Below are positions 41,551-55,682 of a stretch of 64,000 nucleotides of DNA, in pieces. The notes under the pieces are model-generated. The model saw nothing but the letters and a program-made list of their open reading frames with translations, searched no databases and was not told where the DNA came from. Made by a program: the position numbers and the translations under genes. Location of the stretch: assembly GCA_029778615.1 (NCBI GenBank), contig JAKOPZ010000068.1, positions 1-64,000 of the forward strand, written 5' to 3'. Source of the stretch: Chloroflexota bacterium. GTDB taxonomy: Bacteria > Chloroflexota > Anaerolineae > UBA4142 > SHND01. The first letter of the stretch is position 1. Every line of letters starts with the position of its first letter.

Positions 41551-41613
41551 CGTTGATACAAATTGGTGCGCGGACGCGCACAGCCGAAACGCAAAACGCG
41601 CGTGCGGCTGCTT

Positions 41614-41780
41614 TCACCTCTTTCATCCGGACTATACCGTCGGCTCTGGATTTTCACCAGAATCATGTCGCGCTTCGATGCGAGAGCAAAGAATCGCAAC
41701 TCGTGGGCTTTACCACCGATCGGGAATTTGTGTGACGCGCCGTGTTGGGCGCCTCACTCATCACCCTGCCCCGAGGTGTA
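41614..41780 (-). promoter_or_regulatory. FMN riboswitch (RFN element) of ribY
   Basis: Reading the minus strand, P1 is CACCTC/GAGGTG (41778-41773 with 41620-41615). Conserved blocks follow in order: CGGGGCAGGGTGA, AAATTCCCGATCGG, TGGTAAAGCCCACGAG, TCTGGTGAAAATCCAGAGCC and GACGGTATAGTCCGGATGAA. These are the hallmark of FMN aptamers. About 30 extra nt are inserted in the P2 loop. With FMN bound, the downstream terminator should form and ribY should be off. Confidence 0.95.
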
Positions 41781-41814
41781 TTCGATTAGAGTTCATCACG
41801 CGATGAACGAGCTC

Positions 41815-50890: not shown

Positions 50891-50925
50891 AAAAAGAAAC
50901 AGCGCGAACAATTTCGCGCTGTTTC
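50891..50925 (-). terminator. Terminator of ssrA
   Basis: GAAACAGCGCGAA (50896-50908) pairs with TTCGCGCTGTTTC, followed on the minus strand by TTTTT. It begins about 5 nt after the tmRNA 3' end. Confidence 0.9.
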
Positions 50926-50950
50926 TACAGGTGGAGCTGGCGGGAATTGA

Positions 50951-51642
50951 CACTTGCCTCCTTGATTTTCATCAAGGCGTTGACTATCTCTTGAACTTGC
51001 ATGACATTTTATTTATACTTCATCGCAAGTTCCTCGGCGTATTGTAAGGAGTTCAAGAATATGACAGAAACTGAACTGGCTTATGCAGCTGGTATTTTAG
51101 ATGGAGAAGGTTCAGTCTGCCTCATCAAGAGCAGAGCCGGACGACTCCCTTCACCACAAGTTTCTGTCGTTTCCACTGACCAAGAGCTTGTAAATTGGTT
51201 CAAAGCACGTTTTGGTGGAACCATCGTCTGCAAGAAAAGACGCAAAGAACATCATTCCGATGCATACGATTGGAGACTGATTGACCGTCGCGCTCTCGGT
51301 TTTCTTGCGTCGGTTCGTCCCTATCTCACGATTCAACGAAAGATTGCGCGTGTAGATTTGCTTTTGGAAGCATATCTTGACGCAACCCCACGAAACGGGA
51401 GATATGACCAAGAAACCTATGCAAGAAAGATTGAACTAATCGAAAAGTTCGCCTCCTTACCCTAGTACTCCGTGCATCCATCGTTTAGGAGCCTATGAGT
51501 CGATGCAGGGCTTATTCTTTCGAAATCACCCCTCAGGATTAGCATGACCTTTGCGAGTTGCGAATAGGTTTTAGCATTTCCTGATAAAGCCGAGTTGTTC
51601 CTAGCAGATTTCTCCGATAGGGGGCTCGTCCCGTTTAGACAA
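50951..51642 (-). mobile_element. Group I intron in the tmRNA T-loop
   Basis: The 692-nt intron splits the T-loop between the exon ends GCGGGT and TCAATT. The exon ends in U and the internal guide GCCC (complement of 51625-51622) gives the usual U.G pair. Visible core elements are AATCCTGAG (Q-like), the R strand with GACTCATAGG (complement of 51506-51492), and the S strand AAGAGATAGTC (complement of 50992-50976). R and S pair as P7 through GACT/AGTC. The intron ends in G. It should self-splice to give intact tmRNA. Sequence between R and S, the P8 region, carries the endonuclease gene. Confidence 0.88.
51061..51465 (+). CDS. LAGLIDADG homing endonuclease, antisense to its host intron
   Basis: The 134-aa single-motif protein has AAGILDGEGSV near 9-19, the LAGLIDADG helix, so it would act as a homodimer. 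It then has TDQELVNWFKARFGG, YDWRLIDRRALGFL and a helical C-terminus. ATG 51061 has AAGGAG 9 nt upstream. The predicted role is cutting an intronless tmRNA T-loop to spread the intron. It is encoded on the strand opposite to tmRNA transcription, inside the P8 region, so it needs its own promoter. Confidence 0.88.
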   Translation: MTETELAYAAGILDGEGSVCLIKSRAGRLPSPQVSVVSTDQELVNWFKARFGGTIVCKKRRKEHHSDAYDWRLIDRRALGFLASVRPYLTIQRKIARVDLLLEAYLDATPRNGRYDQETYARKIELIEKFASLP

Positions 51643-52071
51643 ACCCGCGTCCGAAAAGTTGAACCGCAAGTGACTACAAGCTTATCCAGTCTTTGGGGAT
51701 GGGCGGCTAACTTGCGTTAGCAGCGCATCTTACTTGCGCAAACGGACTCGACTGTCAGAGTTGCTTGCGCCGAGCCGATGGTTGACATGATTACATGTCT
51801 TCGTCAGATGCTATCGGCATCGCATCCGAGATACCCCAACTTGGTGACGCCCGGCATACGCGTTTTGGGGGAACCCGTATGTGGACGCCGCAGATTTAAC
51901 TGCGGACCTCTAGGTTATCCTATTCGCTTATGCAGCGAGCGGGAGCGCCGCGAGGTTGGTGCGGTTGTTCGCACGTACAGTTGTGTCCGTTTTATGGTGG
52001 TCAGACGCCACCGCTTGCCACTTGTAATCTTCCCTCCCCGTCGAAGCCGTGCAGCCCCAAATGTCAGAAAC

Positions 52072-55217: not shown

Positions 55218-55682
55218 TTACGCGCGCTCGCGTTCCTTGATGGCGCGTTCGATTTCACGACTCGCATCGCGTTTCGAAATCGCATCGCGTTTGTCGTACT
55301 GGCGTTTGCCTTTGACGAGCGCGATTTCCACTTTGGCGCGATGATTTTTTAAATAGATTCGCAAGGGCACTATGGTCAATCCTTTTTCCTGCACGCGCCC
55401 CATCAAGCGATTGATTTCCTTGCGATGCAGTAACAATTTGCGCGTGCGATACGGGTCCACGTTGAAACGATTGCCCGCCTCGTATGGCGAAATGTGTACG
55501 TTCTGCAAAAGCATCTCGCCGTTTTGCACCGTCGCGTAGGCGTCGCGCAGATTCACCGCGCCCGCGCGCACCGATTTGATTTCGGTCCCCGTCAGCGCAA
55601 TGCCTGCCTCGTGCGTTTCTTGGATAAAGTAATCGTGATACGCTTTGCGATTCGTCGCCACGACTTGGATTTCGTCTGTCAT
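55218..55682 (-). CDS. smpB: SsrA-binding protein SmpB
   Basis: The 154-aa RNA-binding protein is the essential partner of tmRNA. It has [58 protein letters not shown] and the C-terminal [16 protein letters not shown], as in the family. ATG 55682 lacks a Shine-Dalgarno sequence. A stem ATGCGT/ACGCAT followed by T residues lies just before it (about 55690-55715). It lies about 3.2 kb from the ssrA gene on the same strand. Confidence 0.94.

Follow-up and report, generated by a model that had tools for sequence, protein, structure and literature searches.

Group I introns of tmRNA genes were reportedly described by Williams in 2002. A 2025 catalogue counts 883 intron-form tmRNAs in 21 phyla, with insertions at four T-loop subsites (PMC11915505). 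Its main text places position-2 introns almost exclusively in the Anaerolineae, gives a maximum intron length of <700 bp, and reports endonuclease genes in 36 introns, lying in the P7.1 region in 19 of the 23 studied first; the orientation of these genes is not given there. Endonuclease genes read in the sense direction clash with the folding of structured-RNA introns, as ribosomes would disturb the ribozyme. Homing-endonuclease genes antisense to their introns are described for the myxomycete nuclear rDNA introns Dir.S956-2 and Dsq.L2066 (PMC9548176, PMC3679873). Our search of the open-licence literature returned slime-mould nuclear rDNA as the only setting and no bacterial antisense endonuclease gene within a group I intron, and neither "antisense" nor "opposite" occurs as a word in a review devoted to group I introns of bacteria (PMC3984707).

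Here, we analysed a 64,000-nt stretch of a Chloroflexota contig (JAKOPZ010000068.1; the window). Very probably, the sole ssrA gene of this genome carries a mobile-type group I intron whose opposite strand is a separate gene for a single-motif LAGLIDADG endonuclease that homes. Read one way, a single stretch of DNA appears to specify an RNA enzyme and, read the other way, a mobility protein. The intron itself is of a recently catalogued kind, and its position-2 site has already been reported. A preliminary description of the locus had called such introns very rare and known from few bacteria, a view overtaken by the catalogue, whose main text includes the same subsite in Anaerolineae (PMC11915505). 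What appears to be new is the conserved antisense endonuclease gene, with a predicted ribosome-binding site made from a ribozyme hairpin. An opposite-strand gene that draws its translation signal from such a hairpin would be a compact solution to the folding conflict, and its host RNA is the single-copy bacterial tmRNA needed for ribosome rescue.

Table. Features of the interrupted ssrA locus, in window positions
Feature	Position	Strand	Evidence or remark
ssrA intrinsic terminator, 14-bp stem and T-run	50895..50926	-	
tmRNA 3′ exon: remaining T-arm, acceptor 3′ strand CAGCTCC (50939-50933), discriminator A	50932..50950	-	Sequence; in-silico splicing
Group I intron, 692 nt, T-loop position 2 (between U54 and U55), with P7.1/P7.2	50951..51642	-	RF00028, covariation, uninterrupted congeners
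Alternative -35 box TTGACT, complement of P7 3′ strand	50980-50985	+	
Candidate antisense promoter TTGAAC-17-TATACT, across P7/P8	50991..51019	+	Weak consensus match
P7.2 hairpin arm, intron RNA CUCCUUAC	51044..51051	-	Pairing of 98% in this helix; U-A replaced by C-G in L013, a compensatory change
Putative Shine-Dalgarno AAGGAG, 9 nt before ATG 51061; bases double as P7.2 arm	51046..51051	+	
Predicted LAGLIDADG homing-endonuclease gene, 134 aa, in P7.2 hairpin loop, antisense to intron and tmRNA	51061..51465	+	Conservation, selection, profile match
P7.2 second arm, intron RNA GUAAGGAG	51453..51460	-	Plus strand gives the endonuclease's last codons, Ser-Leu-Pro
tmRNA (ssrA) 5′ exon, acceptor stem to U54 of T-loop	51643..52058	-	RF00023, 66.7 bits; sequence; single copy in genome
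ssrA tag frame, ANNRTNLAALPLAA	51972-51931	-	Stop TAA 51930-51928
smpB, tmRNA partner protein	55233..55661	-	PF01668, 210.9 bits

The whole interrupted gene spans 52058-50932 on the minus strand. The ends, resume codon, tag and broken T-arm of a tmRNA, all named in the preliminary description, can be read directly: GGGGCTG begins the gene at 52058, the resume codon GCG stands at 51972, GCGGGT closes the 5′ exon at 51643, and TCAATTCCCGC opens the 3′ exon at 50950, from where the read-out past the splice site is TCAATTCCCGCC. The Rfam tmRNA model (RF00023) exceeds its cut-off of 47 bits. ARAGORN found no tmRNA in the unspliced window, nor in any of the 11 unspliced genes; once the insert was removed in silico, it called one in the window and at 8 of the 10 homologous loci tested. 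A second intact ssrA, which would have counted against the earlier reading, was sought with the covariance model, the exon sequence and the T-arm pattern and is absent from this 95%-complete genome (6.0 Mb). Since smpB is also present, we may fairly infer that ribosome rescue would rely on splicing. The ssrA 3′ end reads ACCT (50929-50932), with CCA incompletely encoded; among congeners, CCA is encoded in L027 and not in L028 or L029. Elsewhere, the window contains an FMN riboswitch (41611-41782, minus strand, 88.4 bits).

The insert measures exactly 692 nt (51642..50951), follows a U and ends in G, as had been described. Against the Rfam group I model (Intron_gpI, RF00028) it scores 38.5 bits (E 5.4e-8), where the gathering score is 50 bits, so that of the two covariance-model searches proposed earlier, that for the tmRNA passed its threshold and that for the intron gave a match beneath it. 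This shortfall is probably due to the inserted gene: gene-bearing forms of the intron fall under the gathering score, and the 283-nt gene-less intron of a congener at the same site (genome G237, locus L031) reaches 54.6 bits.

Structural conservation was assessed on 11 homologous introns with the endonuclease gene removed, using a 57-pair model of P1-P7, P7.1, P7.2, P8 and P9. Pairing holds in 96% of cells, and 19 pairs show two-sided changes; none of 500 shuffles matched these values, and sliding the partners abolished them. P8 is misaligned in 8 of the 11 sequences, and its pair counts were excluded from the evidence. The P3-P7 core shows covariation. The splice-site U pairs with a G in P1 (GGGU/GCCC), a U.G pair noted previously and invariant in all 11 introns, each of which also ends in G. 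Insertion falls between loop nucleotides 1 and 2, and the class is presumably Anaerolineae; in three congeners (L027-L029, from G217, G071 and G171) the T-arm at this place is unbroken and reads GAGTTCAATTCTC. Together, the covariance-model match, the covariation, the splice-site rules, the uninterrupted congeners and the absence of a second ssrA support the assignment of the insert as a T-loop group I intron of the sole ssrA gene. This much the preliminary description had recognized; it overlooked the antisense homing-endonuclease gene that fills most of the insert, which is a mobile-type intron rather than a bare one.

The antisense frame probably encodes a single-motif LAGLIDADG endonuclease acting as a homodimer. 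Its motif helix reads YAAGILDGEGS, sequence and profile comparisons matched I-MsoI and I-CreI (best E 1.1e-6, to I-MsoI), and both the acidic E/D16 and K94 are conserved; the motif helix with its acidic residue and the kinship to solved enzymes place the protein in the LAGLIDADG family. The Pfam model LAGLIDADG_3 (PF14528) gives the window protein 14.2 bits against a curated cut-off of 22.5 and matches all ten members weakly (best E 2.2e-4). Such genes may escape full counting, given that the window protein falls short of the Pfam cut-offs. A Pfam Ycf54 match to the window was dismissed as chance, an open-reading-frame start at 51001 was dropped for 51061, as both homology and the Shine-Dalgarno start at the latter, and an AlphaFold2 model from two sequences was uninformative (pLDDT 45).

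Among 396 genomes of the class, a protein search yielded nine more close relatives of the endonuclease. A pattern search, run separately, recovered ten more introns at the same site, nine gene-bearing and one gene-less; by the pattern used, the intron form occurs in 11 of the 396 genomes. One additional pattern match (G081) was left out of this count. In all ten gene-bearing introns, the window's included, the gene is antisense to the tmRNA, across four families. The ten sequences contain no indel across 134 codons, 57 of the 134 residues are invariant, and dN/dS is 0.06-0.13 where estimable, indicating purifying selection. Variable columns are concentrated at third codon positions (78/56/128 by position). 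In view of the conservation, lack of indels, dN/dS and codon-position bias, it is very unlikely that the frame is open by chance. Furthermore, the bulk of the frame sits in an insert wholly missing from the gene-less sister intron.

The two strands interlock at P7.2. Read on the plus strand, its first arm is GTAAGGAG(G), the putative Shine-Dalgarno, which lies 5-9 nt ahead of an ATG, GTG or TTG in nine of the ten gene-bearing introns; the remaining one, L014, is without a well-spaced start codon. The other arm reads CCTCCTTAC and codes for the final Ser-Leu-Pro before an invariant TAG. In the gene-less position-7 intron of genome G180, the equivalent hairpin is apparently GTGGATCC/GGATCCAC, which argues that the ribozyme itself does not fix the P7.2 sequence. 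The gene-less intron L031 retains the Shine-Dalgarno and the codons TTT TCC TCC TTA CCC TAG around a short loop, and it nests inside gene-bearing introns on the core tree. This state fits gene loss, given both the remnant signals and the nesting.

Evidence for an antisense promoter in the P7/P8 region is suggestive only. For the window's own pair of boxes, one match was found where shuffling predicts 1.2, which by itself is chance level. The P7 3′ strand is invariant and reads TTGACT on the plus strand, and a -10-like hexamer (at least four matches to TATAAT) follows exactly 17 nt past it in seven of the 11 introns; the other four lack it, including the window's, which has a different box pair. 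Shuffling the P8 segment gave p ~0.0008 for hexamers at this spacing, a value obtained on related sequences, and because of that relatedness we treat the pattern as suggestive. It is tentative, and in our estimate not quite an even call, that the opposite strand forms a complete conserved expression cassette, in which the P7 complement supplies the -35 box, the P8 loop the -10 box, and the P7.2 arms the Shine-Dalgarno and last codons. Expression from such a cassette would be uncoupled from tmRNA maturation and potentially antagonistic to it, since the endonuclease mRNA would be complementary to the ribozyme core.

From these features we infer the following course of events. Sense transcription would yield a pre-tmRNA, from which the ribozyme (P1 with its U54-G pair, P3-P9, terminal G) would excise itself and restore the T-arm. 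On the opposite strand, a promoter in P7/P8 and the Shine-Dalgarno doubling as a P7.2 arm may direct synthesis of the endonuclease. Cleavage of intronless ssrA at the T-arm by this enzyme would be followed by repair that copies in the intron together with its endonuclease gene.

The distribution of the intron bears on such mobility. Families f2 and f23 lie in different orders; between them, identity is 58-61% for tmRNA exons, 72-79% for intron cores and 73-80% for endonucleases. For f1 and f2, which share an order, the corresponding figures are 65-67%, 63-67% and 56-60%. Because cross-order identity of cores and endonucleases exceeds that of the exons, intron and endonuclease appear to have a history different from the exon's, as expected for homing, and to have spread horizontally. 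On the tmRNA-exon tree, the intronless G171 groups with two introned congeners, indicating that the insertion is polymorphic within the genus. One genus holds empty, intron-only and intron-plus-endonuclease states, which makes the homing cycle, and any antisense cost to the tmRNA, directly testable. We also considered the T-stem sequence GCGGG as a mark of exon co-conversion; within the genus it occurs in introned genes and not in intronless ones, and the case is weakened by its presence in most intronless f2 genes as well.

Several other explanations of these data deserve consideration. The assembly is of metagenome type with many contigs, and the break could in principle be an artefact, or ssrA a pseudogene with a non-functional intron. 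We regard this as highly improbable, given that site and structure are common to eleven genomes and show compensatory changes, that the gene is the genome's only ssrA, and that smpB and the terminator are intact. Alternatively, the intron may be real and the antisense frame merely an overlap with ribozyme conservation, or a decaying remnant, rather than an expressed endonuclease. The sub-threshold Pfam score and the near-chance promoter match in the window alone would suit such a frame; the low dN/dS, the 134 codons kept free of indels in ten genomes, the third-position variation and the properly spaced Shine-Dalgarno in nine of ten would not, nor would the location of most of the frame in an insert absent from the gene-less sister intron, and we give this explanation little credence.

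A different function for the protein is also conceivable. In Thermotoga, a LAGLIDADG protein belonging to a 23S intron shows maturase-like activity (PMC3984707), and the window protein might likewise be a splicing helper or a regulator rather than an active endonuclease. Conservation of the acidic motif residue and the core lysine argues against this, horizontal spread and the empty/occupied polymorphism fit homing, and a gene-less intron persists in the same genus; a maturase or regulator is unlikely on these grounds.

Relatives of the protein occur in other settings. Free-standing phage LAGLIDADG proteins (PHROG 5046; Sphingobium phage Lacusarx) reach at most 42% identity over 88% of the query, and a profile scan of viral contigs recovered only relatives at 25-39%. 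No phage relative exceeded 42% identity and none from viral contigs 39%; an exact-peptide scan of the viral contigs gave no match, and we saw no tmRNA-intron setting there. PHROG 5046, labelled "HNH endonuclease", matches window positions 51061-51462 nearly full length (E 1.5e-24); phage records call the same relatives HNH or LAGLIDADG, and the HNH label is probably wrong. Distant relatives in sense orientation lie within 23S rRNA genes (L021, L094, L095) or downstream of tmRNA genes (L020, L022, L023). In L020 (G180, ~770-1960), the tmRNA contains a position-7 group I intron that carries no gene. After it come a free-standing LAGLIDADG gene in sense orientation, 34% identical, and then the tmRNA 3′ end once more, with CCGCCGCCTCCACCAATT at ~1405 and ~1937, as if the endonuclease gene had been inserted with target duplication. 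In two genomes of one genus (L022 and L023, both 1501-1770 with flanks), the tmRNA appears uninterrupted and is followed after ~300 nt, on the same strand, by a LAGLIDADG gene with two motifs (ORF of 287-301 codons).

I-CreI and I-MsoI sit in algal organellar 23S introns. The window protein resembles them in its single motif, similar length, profile match, and conserved acidic residue and lysine, and differs in target and orientation. With the catalogued tmRNA introns, the window intron shares the T-loop site, the -1 U paired with G, and the terminal G, and its site and insertion region agree with those in the catalogue's main text (PMC11915505). In contrast to that text, which leaves orientation unstated, all ten genes here can be assigned as antisense. 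To the CCA-equivalent end, the window gene measures 1130 nt; it falls between the longest (1152) and second-longest (1116) genes reported there and so seems absent from that list. Like the myxomycete introns, this locus places an endonuclease gene opposite a group I ribozyme, and for both a separate internal promoter has been proposed. The myxomycete case, however, involves eukaryotic rDNA, His-Cys enzymes, insertion in peripheral stems, P9 among them, and the presence of spliceosomal introns and poly(A), whereas here the setting is a bacterial tmRNA, a probable LAGLIDADG enzyme, P7.2, and a putative Shine-Dalgarno built into the ribozyme hairpin.
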